A DNA stretch of 51,821 nt from Verrucomicrobiota bacterium (GTDB lineage Bacteria; Verrucomicrobiota; Verrucomicrobiia; Limisphaerales; JADLHS01), in NCBI GenBank assembly GCA_025350905.1, contig JANXWY010000311.1, positions 1 to 51,821 of the forward strand. Reading direction: 5' to 3'. The notes beneath the pieces were generated by a model that did not search any database, was not told the origin of the DNA, and saw nothing but the letters and a program-made list of their open reading frames with translations. Both the position numbers and the translations under genes were made by a program. Below, piece after piece: positions 2,163 to 7,888 of the stretch (its first letter is position 1; each line of letters starts with the position of its first letter).

Positions 2163-3332
2163 ATGATGACACGACCAAACTTCTTCCTCACGGCCTTGCT
2201 GGCCATTGGCTGCGCCGGGATGAGCGGCGGCTGCAAGCCCTCCGCCGTCGAATCGAAGGGCGAAGCCGCCGGCGAGCCAATCAAAATCGGCCAGTTCGCA
2301 TCGCTCACCGGCAAAGAAGCCACGTTCGGCATTTCGTCCGATGAAGGCACCACGCTGGCCGTTGAGGAAATCAACGCGGCGGGAGGCGTGTTGGGTCGGA
2401 AACTAAAACTGCTTACGGAAGACACGCAATCGAAGCCGGGCGAGCCCGCCACGGTCGTCAACAAGCTCATCGCCCGCGACGGCGTGGTGGCCATCCTCGG
2501 GGAGGTCGCCTCCAGCCGCTCGCTGGAAGCCGCGCCGATCTGCCAGCAGAGCCAGATTCCCATGATTTCGCCCTCGTCCACCAATCCCAAGGTCACCGAG
2601 GTGGGCGATTACATATTCCGCGTCTGTTTTATTGATCCGTTCCAAGGCACGGTGATGGCCAATTTCGCGCGGAAGACGCTCCAGGCGAAAACGGTCGCGG
2701 TGTTCACCGACGCGAAGAGTGATTACAGCAAGGGGCTGGCGAAATTTTTCAAAGAGAAATTCGTCGCCAACGGCGGCACGATTGCCGTTGAACTGGACTA
2801 CAATGGCGGGGATAAGGATTTCAAGGCGCAACTCACGGCCATCAAGGCGGCCAACCCCGACGCGGTCTTCGTGCCCGGCTATTACACCGACGCCGCTTTG
2901 ATTTGCGTGCAAGCCAAACAGCTTGGCCTGAATGTCCCCTTCATGGGCGGCGACGGGTGGGAATCGGAAAAGCTGGTCGAGATTGGGCGGGAGGCCGTCG
3001 AGGGCCAGTATTTCTCAACGCATTACCACCCTGACGTGGGTAGCGAACAGAGTAAACAATTTCTGCAACACTATCGCGCCCGATGGCAGGGCAAGACCCC
3101 GGATGCGCTGGCGGCCTGTGCTTATGATTCCGTAATCGTGCTGGCGGACGCGTTCAAACGAGCGGGCAGCACCGAGGGCCCCAAGGTCCGCGATGCCCTG
3201 GCCGCCACCAAAGACTTCGCCGCCGTGACCGGCAACATCTCCATTGATACCCACCGCGACGCTTCCAAAGCGGCCGTCATCCTGCAAGTTAAGGACGGGA
3301 AATATAAATATCTCGAGACCGTCGCGCCGTAA
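2163..3332 (+). CDS. livJ: branched-chain amino-acid/amide ABC transporter substrate-binding protein
   Basis: This is the periplasmic-side receptor of the importer encoded downstream (Peripla_BP_6/Leu-Ile-Val-binding family). The 389-aa product starts at MMTRPNFFLTALLAIGC. The first 24 residues look like a lipoprotein signal, with Cys17 or Cys24 (SGGC) as possible lipidation site. The mature part begins EPIKIGQFASLTGKEATFG, followed by EEINAAGGVLGRKL, both hallmarks of the family. An in-frame ATG at 2067 would add 32 residues that do not look like a signal peptide, so 2163 is preferred. No Shine-Dalgarno is evident. The true ligand (Leu/Ile/Val, urea, short amides) cannot be read from sequence. 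Confidence 0.9.
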   Translation: MMTRPNFFLTALLAIGCAGMSGGCKPSAVESKGEAAGEPIKIGQFASLTGKEATFGISSDEGTTLAVEEINAAGGVLGRKLKLLTEDTQSKPGEPATVVNKLIARDGVVAILGEVASSRSLEAAPICQQSQIPMISPSSTNPKVTEVGDYIFRVCFIDPFQGTVMANFARKTLQAKTVAVFTDAKSDYSKGLAKFFKEKFVANGGTIAVELDYNGGDKDFKAQLTAIKAANPDAVFVPGYYTDAALICVQAKQLGLNVPFMGGDGWESEKLVEIGREAVEGQYFSTHYHPDVGSEQSKQFLQHYRARWQGKTPDALAACAYDSVIVLADAFKRAGSTEGPKVRDALAATKDFAAVTGNISIDTHRDASKAAVILQVKDGKYKYLETVAP

Positions 3333-3360
3333 GCCGTGCCCGCCCAATTACCGCCCGGGG

Positions 3361-3488
3361 GCCGGTTTGGAAACTCGCACTTCTGTCGTAGCAGCCGACG
3401 TCAGGAGGCTCAAACCTCTTGGTAGTTGTGGACCGCTATTACCAGCAGTCAGAGCCTTCTTACGTCGGCTGCTACTCTGCAAACCGGC
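3361..3488. repeat. 128-bp hairpin element between livJ and livH
   Basis: Nested inverted repeats: outer gccggtttg (3361-3369)/caaaccggc (3480-3488) and a 24-nt pair at 3388-3411 and 3452-3475 matching at 22/24 (gtagcagccgacgt core). The unit starts about 30 nt after the livJ stop and ends about 30 nt before the livH start. It looks like a non-autonomous palindromic element (MITE/REP-like). It could also damp transcription between receptor and permease genes. Confidence 0.75.
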
Positions 3489-3518
3489 TCTTAGCCAATT
3501 GATTTCGGCCCCGCGCCG

Positions 3519-4448
3519 TTGCAGACTGGCACGATAGTGACGGAAGTTTTCCAGCAACTCATCAACGGGCTCGCCCTCGGCGCGATCTACGGCCTCATCG
3601 CGCTGGGTTATACCATGGTCTATGGCGTTCTGCGGTTCATCAATTTCGCGCACGGGGATGTCTTCATGCTCGGCGCGTTCGCCGGTTACTTTTTTGCCCC
3701 CGCCGTCAATCGCTTCCTGCCGGCGCAATCGTATCTCGGCGGTGCGCTCGTATTGATTGCGTCCATGGCCGTGTGCGCGCTGATCGGGATGGTGATCGAA
3801 TTCCTGGCCTACCGTCCGTTGCGCAACCGGCCCAAACTTACCGTCCTGATCACGGCCATCGGCGTATCCTTGCTCATTGAATACACCTGCCAGCACGCGG
3901 CCGTGTTTGGCGCGGCCCCGCGAAAATTTCCCGACCTGATTCCCGCGACCACCTGGCATGTCGGCGGCCTCGTCATCGCCTCCACCCAGGTGATCGTCCT
4001 GGTGACCACGTTGAGCCTGTTAATTGCGTTGCGGTTCATCGTACAAAAAACGAAGGTGGGCACGGCCATGCGCGCCGTGTCGTTTAACGAACAGGCCGCG
4101 GTGCTCATGGGCGTGAACCTCAATCGCATCATCTCCTTCACGTTCGGCCTCGGCTCGGCGCTGGCGGCGGCGGGCGGCATTCTGTACGCGATGAATTACT
4201 CCAGCATCGAGCCGCTCATGGGCGTGCAAACCGGTCTGAAGGCATTCGTCGCGGCGGTGGTGGGCGGCATCGGCAATCTGCCGGGCGCGGCCCTGGGCGG
4301 TTTGATCCTGGGTATCGTCGAAACCTTCGCCGGCGGCATCCCCGGCCTGTCGAATTATCGCGACGGCATCGCGTTCGCGATCTTGATTCTAATCCTGCTG
4401 TTCCGACCCAGCGGGCTGCTGGGCAAACCGCAAATCGAGAAAGTGTGA
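3519..4448 (+). CDS. livH: branched-chain amino-acid ABC transporter permease LivH
   Basis: This is one of the two inner-membrane permeases of the importer. The 309-aa hydrophobic protein has the LivH signatures QLINGLALGAIYGLIALGYT near the N-terminus, RFINFAHGD after the first segments, and near the C-terminus KAFVAAVVGGIGNLPGAALG and LLFRPSGLLG; about eight membrane segments are expected for the family. The start is non-ATG: TTG at 3519, or GTG at 3537 (six codons later), which gives VTEVFQQLINGL and fits the family N-terminus well. It is co-directional with livJ and livM. Confidence 0.93.
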   Translation: MQTGTIVTEVFQQLINGLALGAIYGLIALGYTMVYGVLRFINFAHGDVFMLGAFAGYFFAPAVNRFLPAQSYLGGALVLIASMAVCALIGMVIEFLAYRPLRNRPKLTVLITAIGVSLLIEYTCQHAAVFGAAPRKFPDLIPATTWHVGGLVIASTQVIVLVTTLSLLIALRFIVQKTKVGTAMRAVSFNEQAAVLMGVNLNRIISFTFGLGSALAAAGGILYAMNYSSIEPLMGVQTGLKAFVAAVVGGIGNLPGAALGGLILGIVETFAGGIPGLSNYRDGIAFAILILILLFRPSGLLGKPQIEKV

Positions 4449-4587
4449 AAAGCGCCAACCTCCAACCTCCATCATTCACAGCACCTGCCAACTCCATTCT
4501 TCAAGTGGGCTTGCGCGCCCGGTTGGAGCTTGATGGTTGGAATTTCTCTGGAGTTTGGAGTTTGGTATTTGGTGTTTATTTCAATCA
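4449..4587. repeat. low-complexity spacer between livH and livM
   Basis: The 139 bp between the livH stop and the livM start are strongly skewed: the left part is pyrimidine-rich (caacctccaacctcca), the right part its purine-rich counterpart (ggagtttggagtttgg). Short inverted matches such as ctccaacc/ggttggag occur. No ORF of its own. An in-frame ATG at 4537 would extend LivM by 17 residues encoded by this repeat-like sequence and is rejected as start. Confidence 0.45.
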
Positions 4588-5508
4588 ATGAATTCCGGCG
4601 CGAAACGGTGGTTGCTGGTCGCCGTGGCAGCGGCGATGGCGGTGTCCTATTTCTCCGCCCAGTTCAACCGCTACTATCTCGGCATCGTCATCGACATCGG
4701 CATCAACATCATTCTGGCGGTCAGCCTCAATCTCATCAACGGCCACACCGGCCAGTTCAGCCTCGGCCATGCGGGGTTCATGGCGGTGGGCGGCTACACG
4801 GCCGCGAAGATTACGCTGACGATGCAAACAATCTTACCGCCGTGGGCGCACCCGTTGTTGTTCCTTGTCGCGCTGCTGCTCGGCGGCGGGCTGGCGGCGT
4901 TGGCCGGCCTGGCTGTGGGCGTGCCGACGTTGCGGCTTCGGGGTGATTATCTCGCCATCGTGACCCTGGGCTTCGGCGAAATCATCCGCGTCTTTTTCCA
5001 AACGACCGAGGCCTTCGGTGCGGCCACCGGTTTAACCGGCATCCCGCACTGGACCACGTTTGCCTGGGCCTGGAGCTTAGCCGCCCTGACCGTATTCGTC
5101 GTCGGCTGCTTGGTGAGTTCCACCTATGGCCGCGGTTTCCTCGCCGTCCATGACGATGAAGTGGCGGCCGGTGCGATGGGCATCAATCCGGTGCGCTACA
5201 AGGTCACCGCGTTTGTCATCGGTGCCTTCTTCGCGGGCATCGCGGGTGGACTCTATGCGCATCACAAACAGTTCCTGTCACCCGGCGGCTTCGATTTCAT
5301 GAAGAGCATCGACATCGTGGTGATGGTGATCCTCGGCGGCATGGGCCGCACCGCCGGCGTGATCGTCGCCGCCGTGCTGTTGACGCTGTTGCCCGAAGTC
5401 CTGCGCGGTTTCGCCGACTACCGCATGATTATTTACTCGCTGCTCATCATTGTCCTGATGATCGCTCGGCCCCAGGGACTTTTTGCCTTCCGAAGGCAAA
5501 GGAATTAA
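4588..5508 (+). CDS. livM: branched-chain amino-acid ABC transporter permease LivM
   Basis: This is the second membrane subunit of the importer. The 306-aa protein has LivM hallmarks: NIILAVSLNLINGHTGQFSL, GHAGFMAVGGYTAAK, VPTLRLRGDYLAIVTLGFGE and GGMGRTAGV near the C-terminus, ending LLIIVLMIARPQGLFAFRRQ. The ATG at 4588 gives a positively charged start (MNSGAKRW) before the first membrane segment. The stop codon TAA (5506-5508) lies inside the left terminus of the following four-helix-bundle cassette, so the cassette supplies the end of this gene. Confidence 0.93.
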   Translation: MNSGAKRWLLVAVAAAMAVSYFSAQFNRYYLGIVIDIGINIILAVSLNLINGHTGQFSLGHAGFMAVGGYTAAKITLTMQTILPPWAHPLLFLVALLLGGGLAALAGLAVGVPTLRLRGDYLAIVTLGFGEIIRVFFQTTEAFGAATGLTGIPHWTTFAWAWSLAALTVFVVGCLVSSTYGRGFLAVHDDEVAAGAMGINPVRYKVTAFVIGAFFAGIAGGLYAHHKQFLSPGGFDFMKSIDIVVMVILGGMGRTAGVIVAAVLLTLLPEVLRGFADYRMIIYSLLIIVLMIARPQGLFAFRRQRN

Positions 5509-5954
5509 AAATTAGAAATGAAAAATGCCGACTCCAATTCGGGAGGTCGCGGAAAAATACCGCCGAAGGATATTGTTGTTCGCACTTTTGATTTCGCTGT
5601 CCTCATCATTCAACTCTGTGTGAAGCTGGATGAACGTGCAGGCGTTGGGCGGGTGTTGATGAGCCAGATTCTACGCGCCGGGACCAGTGTTCCAGCCAAT
5701 GTCGAGGAAGCGCAGGCCGCTCAAAGCAAGGCCGATTTTATCGGTAAGATGAGGATTGCGCTGAAAGAAGCGCGAGAGACGCACCTGCGATTGCGCCTGC
5801 TTGCGCCAGCAAAAGTAGTTTCGGCAACTGAATTACAACCGTTGATTCAAGAAGCCGACGAGATCAAACGTGTAATTGGCGCGATTATCCTCTCCACCAA
5901 ACGCGGCGAGGGTGTCTGACCGCTTTTTAACTTTGCATTTTTAATTTTTAATTC
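5502..5954. mobile_element. four-helix-bundle cassette 1 with inverted termini
   Basis: Left end gaattaaaaattagaaatg (5502-5520) and right end gcatttttaatttttaattc (5935-5954) are reverse complements at 18 of 19 positions. Between them lies a single ORF (5518-5919). The left end overlaps the livM stop codon and the right end stops one base before the livG ATG. The right 31 bp (5924-5954) match the right end of cassette 2 at 30/31. No target-site duplication is obvious. Mobility is inferred; the inverted termini and two copies are seen directly. Confidence 0.7.
5518..5919 (+). CDS. four-helix-bundle protein (S23/IVP family), copy 1
   Basis: This 133-aa protein belongs to the four-helix-bundle family first seen in 23S rRNA intervening sequences and structurally related to Avd of diversity-generating retroelements (family knowledge; molecular role unknown). 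It carries the family core QILRAGTSVPANVEEAQAAQ, then SKADFIGKMRIALKEARET and LRLRLL, in helical periodicity with no signal peptide. It starts 9 nt after the livM stop and ends 35 nt before livG. It has no role in amino-acid transport that I know of. Its paralogue at 6737 shares most residues, and many nucleotide differences are at third codon positions, which implies selection on the protein. Confidence 0.88.
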   Translation: MKNADSNSGGRGKIPPKDIVVRTFDFAVLIIQLCVKLDERAGVGRVLMSQILRAGTSVPANVEEAQAAQSKADFIGKMRIALKEARETHLRLRLLAPAKVVSATELQPLIQEADEIKRVIGAIILSTKRGEGV

Positions 5955-6740
5955 ATGCCTCCGCTGCTCGAACTCGACAAAGTGACCATCCGCTTCGGTG
6001 GCCTCACGGCGGTGTCGGAACTGGACTTGCATATCGGGGCGCATGAGCTGGTTGGCCTCATCGGTCCGAATGGCGCGGGCAAAACCACCGCGTTCAATCT
6101 CGTCACCGGCGTTTACCAACCCACTGGTGGAGGCATTTCCTTCCAAGGTCAGTCGACCGCCAATTTGAAGCCGCACCAACTCACCCGGCGCGGCATCGCG
6201 CGCACCTTCCAGAACATCCGGCTGTTCGCTTCGATGAGCGTGTTCGACAACGTGCGCGCCGCCGTACAGCTGCATCGGCCGCACGGCATTCGCGATGCCC
6301 TCTGGCGCGGCCGGAGTTTTCGCGACGGCGAAAAGGCGGTCGAAACGCAGGTCATGGAGCTGTTGGAGATTTTCAAGCTGGGCCGCTTCCGCGAAGCCAA
6401 TGCCCGGAGTTTGCCGTACGGGGAACAGCGGCGGCTCGAGATCGTCCGCGCGCTCGCCACGCAGCCGAAACTTCTGCTCCTGGACGAGCCCGCCGCGGGC
6501 ATGAACCCGACGGAGAAGGTGGAGTTGACGCGCCTCATCCGCTTCATCAAGGACAAGTTTCAAATCGCGGTCTTGTTGGTGGAACACGACATGCAAGTCG
6601 TCATGAGCATCTGCGAGCGCGTGGCCGTGCTCGATTATGGGGTAAAGATCGCGGAAGGCACGCCGGCCGAAGTGCGGGCGAACCCGAAAGTGATTGAGGC
6701 GTATCTTGGTGGGGAATTACAAATTCAAAATTCAAAATGA
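5955..6740 (+). CDS. livG: branched-chain amino-acid ABC transporter ATP-binding protein LivG
   Basis: This is one of the paired cytoplasmic ATPases that power the importer. The 261-aa protein has Walker A GPNGAGKTT (near residue 40), the LivG-specific GIARTFQNIRLF, a signature region LPYGEQRRLEIVRALA, Walker B LLLLDEPAAGMNP and the H-loop LLVEHDMQVV. The normal family end (VIEAYLG) is followed by GELQIQNSK, which is encoded by the left terminus of the next cassette. Its stop TGA overlaps the ATG of the second four-helix-bundle gene (ATGA), which would allow translational coupling. Confidence 0.96.
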   Translation: MPPLLELDKVTIRFGGLTAVSELDLHIGAHELVGLIGPNGAGKTTAFNLVTGVYQPTGGGISFQGQSTANLKPHQLTRRGIARTFQNIRLFASMSVFDNVRAAVQLHRPHGIRDALWRGRSFRDGEKAVETQVMELLEIFKLGRFREANARSLPYGEQRRLEIVRALATQPKLLLLDEPAAGMNPTEKVELTRLIRFIKDKFQIAVLLVEHDMQVVMSICERVAVLDYGVKIAEGTPAEVRANPKVIEAYLGGELQIQNSK

Positions 6741-7172
6741 AAAACGCCGACACCAGTTCGCACGACCCTAGGGCAAAGCTGCCAAAGGATGTTGTCGTGG
6801 GCGCTTTTGATTTTGCGGTCTCTGTGATGCAACTTTGCGTGAAGTTGGACGAGCGCCCCGGGGTGGGAAGGGTTTTGATGAGCCAGATTCTTCGGGCCGG
6901 GACCAGTGTGGCAGCGAATGGGGAGGAGGCTCAGGCAGCGCAGAGCAAAGCTGATTTTGTCAGCAAGATGAGCCTCGCGCTCAAGGAACCCCGCGAAACT
7001 CATCTTCGACTGCGGTTGCTCGTTCCGGCCAAAGTAATTCCGCCGAATGATCTGAAGCCGCTCCTTCAGGAAGCCGACGAAATCAAGCGCGGCATCGGAG
7101 CCATCATTGTTTCCACCAAGCGTGGCGGGGCCGATTATAGGTTTTTAATTTTGCATTTTTAATTTTTAATTC
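6714..7172. mobile_element. four-helix-bundle cassette 2 with inverted termini
   Basis: The left end begins gaattacaaattcaaaatt (6714-6732) and the right end is gcatttttaatttttaattc (7153-7172), identical in all 20 bases to the right end of cassette 1. Left and right ends match as inverted repeats at 16 of 19 positions. The unit carries one ORF (6737-7162) and sits between livG and livF. The left end supplies the last codons of livG; the right end stops 5 nt before the livF ATG. Confidence 0.7.
6737..7162 (+). CDS. four-helix-bundle protein (S23/IVP family), copy 2
   Basis: This 141-aa paralogue of the 5518 gene carries the same family core (QILRAGTSVAANGEEAQAAQ, SKADFVSKMSLALKEPRET, LRLRLLVPAKV). 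Over a 123-nt stretch aligned by hand (6839-6961 against 5620-5742) I count 26 differences, about 79% identity. A run of residues after STKRGGADY is read from the right-terminal sequence of the cassette, so the C-terminus (RFLILHF) is probably not functional sequence. One helix position differs from the usual pattern (KEPRET in place of KEARET), which puts a proline in a helix. It overlaps livG by 4 nt. Confidence 0.86.
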   Translation: MKNADTSSHDPRAKLPKDVVVGAFDFAVSVMQLCVKLDERPGVGRVLMSQILRAGTSVAANGEEAQAAQSKADFVSKMSLALKEPRETHLRLRLLVPAKVIPPNDLKPLLQEADEIKRGIGAIIVSTKRGGADYRFLILHF

Positions 7173-7177
7173 CGGCG

Positions 7178-7888
7178 ATGTTAGAAATCAAAAATCTGGC
7201 CGTGAGCTACGGCGCGATTGCCGCGCTGCACGAGATTTCGTTTTCGGTCAAGGCCGGCAGCATCGTCACCCTCATCGGCAGCAACGGCGCCGGCAAAAGC
7301 ACGACGCTGCGGGCGATTTCCGGTTTGGTGAAACCCCAGGCCGGGGAGATTCTTTACGCCGGCCAGAACATCGCCGGCCTGCCGGCGCATCAAATCGTGC
7401 GGCTCGGTCTGTCCCAGGTGCCCGAAGGCCGTATGATTTTTGCCAATCTCACCGTCCACGAAAACCTGATGATGGGTGCGTACCTCCAGCACGACAAGGC
7501 GGTCGTCCGGCGCGAGCTAGAACTGGTCTTCCACACGTTTCCGCGCCTGCAGGAACGCGAGCAGCAAGTCGCCGGCACCCTTTCCGGCGGCGAACAACAG
7601 ATGCTCGCCATTGGCCGTGCGCTCATGAGCAAACCGAAATTCCTGATGCTGGACGAACCATCCCTCGGCATCGCTCCGTTGCTGGTGAAAACCATCTTTG
7701 AAAAGATCGTCGAGATCAACCGCACGCACGGCATCACGATTCTGCTGGTTGAACAAAACGCGAACCTGGCGCTGGAAATTTCCCAATTCGGCTACGTGCT
7801 CGAAACCGGGAAAATAATTCTATACGACAACTCGGCCGCCCTGCGCCAGAACCCGCAGGTCAGGAGCGCTTATTTGGGTGGGTGTTGA
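7178..7888 (+). CDS. livF: branched-chain amino-acid ABC transporter ATP-binding protein LivF
   Basis: This is the second ATPase of the importer and closes the operon. The 236-aa protein has Walker A GSNGAGKST, the LivF-typical LGLSQVPEGRMIFANLTVHE, signature LSGGEQQMLAIGRALM, Walker B FLMLDEPSLGIAP and LLVEQNANLALEIS. The C-terminus (VRSAYLGG) is canonical. It ends 9 nt from the convergent stop of the Uma2-type gene; no terminator with a T-run is visible in that gap. Confidence 0.96.
   Translation: MLEIKNLAVSYGAIAALHEISFSVKAGSIVTLIGSNGAGKSTTLRAISGLVKPQAGEILYAGQNIAGLPAHQIVRLGLSQVPEGRMIFANLTVHENLMMGAYLQHDKAVVRRELELVFHTFPRLQEREQQVAGTLSGGEQQMLAIGRALMSKPKFLMLDEPSLGIAPLLVKTIFEKIVEINRTHGITILLVEQNANLALEISQFGYVLETGKIILYDNSAALRQNPQVRSAYLGGC

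Follow-up and report, generated by a model that had tools for sequence, protein, structure and literature searches.

Protein-linked, lineage-specific 7-bp arrays form the termini of a widespread class of bacterial gene cassettes

Introduction

MITEs and REP/RAYT-type elements are short and mirror-image, and exist in gene-bearing and gene-less forms with common ends. The protein family PF05635 (23S_rRNA_IVP), which is widespread and for which we found no known function, takes its name from insertions in rRNA genes. These 23S rRNA intervening sequences (IVS), present for example in Coxiella and Leptospira, have long been suspected of being mobile (PMC4990558), and 23S_rRNA_IVP genes have also been reported inside cas operons, for instance between cmr3 and cmr2 (PMC3936711). 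Repeats of seven nucleotides have been described in two further settings: element P6b of the Nostoc trnL intron is a stem of complementary 7-nt repeats, with the classes TDNGATT and NNTGAGT and shifts between classes (PMC4476775), and marine Beggiatoaceae carry TAACTGA direct repeats, abundant intergenic 7-mers near gene boundaries (PMC4679880). What is said here and below about these four reports follows excerpts of each. Within the open-access PMC literature, a scope that leaves aside most subscription journals and bioRxiv preprints, we recognised no description of 7-bp arrays around PF05635 genes.

Here we analyse such arrays at two cassettes (cassette 1 and cassette 2) in a 51,821-nucleotide stretch of Verrucomicrobiota DNA, referred to as the window, and compare them with related loci in other genomes. 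The window genome is designated G000, and G001 is a genome of the same genus (LivM 95% identical); G and L numbers denote the genomes and loci compared.

Results

The two cassettes, both on the plus strand, lie at gene junctions of an operon for a branched-chain amino acid (liv-type) transporter. Its two BPD_transp_2 permeases and two ABC ATPases score above the Pfam cut-offs, and the best NCBIfam matches of the genes are LivH, LivM, LivG and LivF, all four below the NCBIfam cut-offs. Each cassette consists of two mirror-image arms of near-tandem 7-bp units, here with the unit AATTAAA, around one gene. Cassette 1 (5502..5954, 453 bp) has mirror-image ends and occupies the livM-livG junction. 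Its left arm (5502..5529), made of AATTAAA-type units, contains the TAA at which the livM-like gene stops (5506-5508) as well as the cassette gene's ATG (5518); this gene (5518..5919) encodes a four-helix-bundle protein of 133 amino acids, and the right arm (5924..5954), a mirror image of the left, stops directly before the livG-like ATG (5955). Cassette 2 (6714..7172, 459 bp) occupies the livG-livF junction. The livG-like frame enters its left arm (6714..6748) and terminates at a TGA overlapping the ATG of the cassette gene (6737..7162), which encodes a four-helix-bundle protein of 141 amino acids and has its stop codon inside the right arm (7142..7172). Between the livH- and livM-like genes lies a gene-less element (4450..4580, ends approximate, no strand assigned) with the unit CCAACCT or CCAAACT; both of its ends are 7-bp periodic, their mirror relation being judged by eye, and together with the two cassettes it puts inserts at all three livH-M-G-F junctions. 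No rRNA match from Rfam was found within window positions 3300-7300, where the sole match to a known RNA family was sub-threshold and outside the cassettes. A promoter and terminator scan gave two promoter-like matches, on the minus strand, and terminators at no more than chance. Elsewhere in the window, positions 360-424 form an inverted repeat of 26 bp around a 13-bp loop, with a single mismatch.

A sequence-only reading of the window had drawn attention to the right termini of the cassettes as better conserved than the coding sequence, whose changes it placed mostly at third codon positions. Both observations hold: 30 of the 31 ungapped positions are identical between 5924-5954 and 7142-7172, and the changes in the coding sequence fall mainly at third positions, as identity between the two genes is 79%, 95% and 43% at codon positions 1, 2 and 3 (codon columns, without the N- and C-terminal columns). 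These codon-position identities make it evident that the cassette protein is under purifying selection. The mirror-image left end, the 7-bp unit arrays at both ends and the cassette start codon within the left arm had been overlooked. Chance or local conversion, which that reading allowed for as the cause of the two-copy pattern, does not account for a right arm that matches at 26-30 of 31 positions among seven copies in host families f1, f26 and f43. In an eighth copy of the cassette 1 lineage, from G254, the right arm matches at 20-23 of 31 positions and has one 7-bp unit fewer. Over all eight copies (three host families, 28 pairs), right arms average 87% identity vs 50% at third positions.

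The proteins of both cassettes belong to PF05635 and to TIGR02436 (four helix bundle protein). Scores are above the cut-offs in every case, at E=5.8e-19 (68.7 bits vs a cut-off of 33.8) and E=4.4e-24 (84.8 bits vs 24), respectively, for cassette 1 and E=2.1e-15 (57.3 bits) and E=9.3e-21 (74.1 bits) for cassette 2. PF05635 was the only Pfam match and NCBIfam returned, besides TIGR02436, two sub-cut-off relatives of it, so that neither database indicated a transposase or other known catalytic domain in the two proteins. The AlphaFold2 model of the cassette 1 protein (pLDDT 90.3) is a four-helix bundle whose best PDB matches are the S23-family structures 2rld (E 2.3e-06) and 2gsc (E 2.4e-04). Much weaker matches (E about 0.1, TM-score about 0.66) are to Avd proteins of diversity-generating retroelements (DGR), including one in a reverse-transcriptase ribonucleoprotein; Avd is an oligomeric nucleic-acid binder.

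Mirror-image arms accompany PF05635 genes well beyond the window. The family is present in 31 of 38 genomes searched. The window genome holds 12 matches, and all 10 that exceed the cut-off have mirror arms, whose other units include GTTGAAA, AGTCTGA, GGTCGAG, AGTGTTC, GTGGAGT, GATTGCC, CAAACAC and GTGACAG; at the score used, arms are lacking in L016 and L017, the two matches below the cut-off. To these 12 we added 29 returned loci and 60 picked among the matches listed, roughly by score and with some skipped, giving an order set of 101 loci from 30 relatives' genomes, of which 97 remained after four with short flanks were dropped. A mirror-arm score of at least 24 was reached by 87 of the 97 loci, compared with 49 of 1000 mispaired flanks and 6 of 151 other ORFs from the same genome; at a score of at least 35 the counts were 58 of 97, 2 of 1000 and 1 of 151. 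In arms of loci scoring at least 28, identity was 0.653 at a lag of 7 and 0.625 at a lag of 14, with 0.24-0.38 at the remaining lags from 2 to 15. A broad set comprised the best 80 of 584 relatives in a scan of named genomes, 76 of them with enough flank; because the search started from 7 aligned loci of this order, the set is biased toward relatives of those loci. Its record titles name Verrucomicrobia, Planctomycetes, Bacteroidetes, Proteobacteria, Nitrospirae, Acidobacteria, Omnitrophota and others. Here 69 of 76 loci scored at least 24 (mispaired, 48 of 600) and 44 of 76 at least 35 (mispaired, 5 of 600), and identity within arms was 0.65 at a lag of 7 and 0.24-0.38 at other lags, 14 aside. 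Arms below the cut-off were seen in 10 of the 97 order-set loci and 7 of the 76 broad-set loci. Two PF05635-like genes with similar surroundings in one genus (L148 in G273, L149 in G259) have no heptamer arms at the score used.

Within the arms, a mirrored order of unit variants receives only modest support, as it beats shuffles in a minority of loci (23 of 104 below 5%; 31 of 104 at 50% or above). The left arm is purine-rich (mean 0.67; above one half in 81 of 96 loci, below in 13), which is true of either strand because the arms mirror each other. At the livG-livF junction of G073, both arms mix AATTAAA with AAGGCAAA-like units, an apparent transitional form. We also considered whether the window genome abounds in gene-less heptamer elements, and rejected this: in a 252-kb sample (the window and 20 contig stretches), 7-bp periodicity was no commoner than 6-bp periodicity (14 regions, including one run of N and four from the two cassettes, vs 17; shuffle, 1). 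A strict inverted-repeat scan yielded 17 repeats, and cassette 1 was the sole heptamer-armed element among the 9 listed.

Arms are retained better than third codon positions between close relatives. We compared loci with arms of at least 28, taking as close those pairs with at least 70% protein identity; the 71 such pairs, formed from 61 loci, are not independent. In the 19 pairs with at least 80% protein identity, identity was 0.77 in left and 0.80 in right arms vs 0.56 at third positions, and at 70-80% (52 pairs) it was 0.69 in both arms vs 0.43. Unrelated pairs set the floor at 0.416 for arms and 0.283 for third positions. Since the arm measure has the higher floor, raw counts are biased, and we discarded the uncorrected figure of 69 of 71 pairs with arms above third positions, a test that 1253 of 1500 unrelated pairs pass too. 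After floor correction, arms retain 0.64 of the possible range vs 0.39 for third positions in the closer group and 0.46 vs 0.20 in the other, and they are ahead of third positions in 67 of 71 pairs (17 of 19 and 50 of 52), compared with 824 of 1500 unrelated pairs. The four close pairs in which arms are not better kept are L223/L261, L088/L090, L028/L054 and L006/L021. Below 50% protein identity, arms lie near the floor (0.45-0.47 vs 0.42). The suggestion of selection on the terminus is thus supported at short range, where arms outlast third positions, but not among very diverged proteins, whose termini are unconserved: terminal conservation holds between near relatives, and at long range the unit gets replaced.

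What replaces the unit goes along with the protein. Among all pairs, units match at 5.77 of 7 positions above 60% protein identity and at 3.4-3.7 below 40%, and label permutation equalled the observed unit-protein correlation in 0 of 300 trials (all pairs, same-site pairs included). Pairs without homologous flanking genes (tblastn 1e-6, up to 900 bp on each side) represent different insertion sites. In the 24 of these with at least 70% protein identity the mean unit match is 5.75 of 7, and in the 81 at 60-70% it is 4.8, falling to 3.48 at 20-30% and 3.37 below 20%. Because the coupling persists in pairs that lack homologous flanks, the unit goes with the protein and not with the place; arms and protein co-diverge. 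There are 118 distinct units among 158 loci. Gene-bearing cassettes show no visible multiplication within a genome, where 6 of 141 pairs (4.3%) share a unit (at least 6 of 7 positions) vs 2.9% of 2862 pairs between genomes.

The insertion context was examined in 141 loci with arms of at least 30, the ORFs being picked mechanically, so that the counts contain some error. The upstream gene runs in the same direction as the cassette gene in 122 loci and in the opposite direction in 17, and no upstream gene was found for 2; among ordinary genes of the sample, at a stricter ORF length, 67 of 111 are co-directional. Among the 122 co-directional loci, 76 have the upstream stop codon no more than 10 bp from the left arm. 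Measured to the outer end of the arm, a stop this close occurs in 59 of 85 tandem contexts and in 14 of 30 convergent ones.

Orthologous junctions are occupied in some genomes and empty in others. Of 30 livM-livG junctions, that of the window genome included, 24 are short and 2 (G000 and G036) hold a PF05635 cassette; a longer spacer is present in two others (G003, G011). The junction in G001 is empty, and comparison with it reveals no visible target-site duplication at livM-livG, the junction itself being only partly alike there. Two genomes carry gene-less hairpins at livM-livG, the site of cassette 1 in the window genome: L163 and L181 (in G034 and G044), both ACCACAGATGGACACAGAT hairpins of the ACCACAGATG type. 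The cassette at L015 of the window genome is absent from the same junction in G001, G002, G004 and G007, and in G003 this site has some 100 bp of other sequence. In G005 (L319) the L015 junction is short, and a GTCACC-like residue separating stop from start is possibly what remains of a lost GTGACAG-type cassette. The L007 cassette is common to G000 and G001.

Arms of the AATTAAA type also occur around no gene. A 25-base pattern allowing up to 2 mismatches detected such arms in 32 of 293 genomes of the order, with up to 16 per genome (reversed control pattern, 0-2 per genome). Among 30 example loci, 2 are gene-bearing cassettes of 453 bp, 13 are gene-less copies of 77-92 bp with paired arms, 1 measures 132 bp and the remaining 14 show no clear partner arm. 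Copies that have these arms and no gene are found in the window genome and in others, among them G254 and G276 at livG-livF; these two retain the gene in their livM-livG cassette. That gene-less copies strictly require a PF05635 gene in their own genome is contradicted by G033, which has 8 AATTAAA-type arms and no PF05635 match, so a gene in the same genome is unnecessary for their persistence. From the empty sites together with the gene-less copies we infer that the cassettes are mobile. Carriage by a phage, virus or plasmid was considered and rejected: the search gave two weak phage records, no relative of cassette 1 in viral_contigs and no plasmid DNA match to it.

A second protein family is bounded in a similar manner. 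In loci of PF13366 (GxxExxY / PDDEXK_3) from relatives (L285-L314), the gene lies between mirror-image repeat arrays. With L293 and L297 left out for want of flank, 28 of the 30 returned loci were scored; their arms reached at least 24 in 26 and at least 35 in 22 of them, compared with 69 and 18 of 600 mispaired flanks. The arm period is near 9 bp in 13 of 25 loci and 8, 10, 11 or 12 bp in the others, and is less regular than the 7-bp one (lag-9 identity 0.42). The anatomy is therefore not tied to one protein family, and the mirror-arm design, given a period near 9 bp in PF13366 loci, may have arisen more than once. This comparison had been prompted by the ACCACAGATG hairpins, which are reminiscent of GxxExxY genes. 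Other hairpins were seen in passing. A short element, GTAGCAGCCGACGTCAGGAGGCTC, has several copies and variants in the window genome (window 3388-3475; L107 3085-3163; L113 7533-7621), and a hairpin similar to it occupies the livG-livF junction of G001 (L158), the site of cassette 2 in the window genome. At L107 1201-1305, a hairpin with a 49-bp middle has 6-bp units (ATCTTA) in both arms.

Discussion

The termini first noticed in the window belong to a widespread cassette class and consist of 7-bp arrays that are specific to the lineage and linked to the protein. The simplest reason for arms that outlive third positions and yet turn over with the protein is a predicted recognition of the arm by the protein, although joint inheritance can also produce co-divergence. 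Among the options raised by the sequence-only reading, which included a binding or cleavage site and RNA structure, a putative binding site fits the terminus best. The reading that we consider probable, judging from comparative sequence data, is that these are widespread, mobile, hairpin-armed cassettes whose protein probably reads its own arms. By position, cassettes favour the stop codon of a co-directional host gene. In both arms the cassette protein would recognise its own 7-bp unit, in the form of DNA or single-stranded DNA, and it would help an enzyme from the host or from another element to move the cassette. Protein and unit would then co-diverge, leaving the arm conserved among near relatives and unrecognisable among distant ones. 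A bolder form of this proposal, on which we would not quite bet, is that the cassettes constitute a new kind of mobile element across bacteria: one without a recognised transposase, with a small four-helix-bundle protein that reads its own mirrored 7-bp word, in which word and protein may have diversified together, yielding a very large number of orthogonal pairs, and insertion targets host stop codons.

The strongest competitor, which we nevertheless regard as unlikely, places the function of the arms in RNA, as a long hairpin in the polycistronic transcript that is excised or neutralised by RNase III in the manner of 23S rRNA intervening sequences. The Coxiella IVS has a 28-bp terminal stem and is cleaved by RNase III in vitro (PMC4990558), and most of our cassettes are co-directional with the upstream gene. 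RNA fold prediction, a check that the sequence-only reading had proposed, pairs both ends in both cassettes; the excess stability is modest for cassette 1 (energy z -2.23) and near none for cassette 2 (z -0.67). Selection on an RNA stem should make G.U mismatches outnumber A.C ones, and both locus sets have a weak opposite trend. Order-set arms contain 77 G.T/T.G vs 107 A.C/C.A mismatches; at a stricter cut the G.U-type and A.C-type counts are 66 vs 97 in the order set (p=0.019) and 53 vs 76 in the broad set (p=0.052), and by locus, with both sets together, 35 are biased to G.U-type and 56 to A.C-type with 50 ties (p=0.035). These counts overlap, the only independent tests being order vs broad, and the bias may have another cause, namely a preference for A-rich sequence near the left-arm start codon. 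The mismatch types thus give no support to the terminus as a structure of the sense transcript, and selection on RNA-level stems was set aside.

Two further explanations appear to us slightly less likely still, and about equally so. In one, the arms are operators, bound through their 7-bp units by a protein that is an autoregulator or half of a selfish maintenance pair, and mobility is incidental. Protein-unit coupling agrees with this, as do the start codons of both window genes inside the left arm, but it leaves unexplained why mirror arms stand at both ends, why there are empty sites, and why copies of one size class lack the gene (the 77-92 bp copies with paired arms, 13 of 30 loci). The other is passive: low-complexity repeats would be kept alike by slippage and by template switching at quasi-palindromes, with the match to the protein reflecting shared descent only. 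Unit gain or loss does exist, the G254 copy having one unit fewer, and the minority of loci with mirrored unit order points the same way; passive decay, however, would not yield arms slower than third positions in nearly all close pairs, and the arms are maintained at both gene ends across phyla. Local gene conversion homogenising the ends of the two window cassettes, which lie 1.2 kb apart and share 30 of 31 positions, we consider highly improbable. The right arm of cassette 2 is matched equally well (30/31) to G036 and to G276, in other host families, so that conversion is not needed, the trend is general over the 71 pairs, and there is little within-genome excess of common units.

If the arms are binding sites of the cassette protein, every genomic copy displays the sequence that its protein reads, which would open hundreds of protein-site pairs to testing at once. 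The cassettes could also account, as a conjecture, for the IVP genes in cas operons (PMC3936711), the Nostoc 7-mer stems (PMC4476775) and intergenic heptamers (PMC4679880).

Among described systems, the IVS of 23S rRNA is alike in protein family and in having complementary ends around one ORF. Unlike it, the window cassettes sit between protein genes for a transporter and not in an rRNA gene; of 20 low-arm-score loci scanned whole, none had an rRNA match at the gathering threshold. The arms of window type are 7-bp arrays of lineage-specific sequence, whereas the excerpted IVS account (PMC4990558) describes no such arrays. The 23S_rRNA_IVP genes of cas operons, going by the excerpts of PMC3936711, may be cassettes at operon junctions rather than CRISPR components. 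The Nostoc P6b stem shares complementary 7-nt repeats with the cassettes, but stands at one fixed group I intron site, with an inner gene unmentioned in the excerpts of PMC4476775, and its relation to them is conjecture. The Beggiatoaceae TAACTGA repeats are direct, with one inverted case in the excerpts, and the terms S23 and helix bundle are absent from the text of PMC4679880. Avd of diversity-generating retroelements resembles the cassette 1 model in fold, with chains of 4dwl and the 8ub7 series among its neighbours, although the match is weak (E about 0.1, identity about 12-17%). Compared with transposons, insertion sequences and REP/RAYT elements, the two window cassettes have no transposase or RAYT (Y1) domain, PF05635 being the only Pfam family match of their proteins; like transposons, insertion sequences and MITEs, the cassettes have terminal inverted repeats common to gene-bearing and gene-less copies, and orthologous sites that are occupied in some genomes and empty in others.
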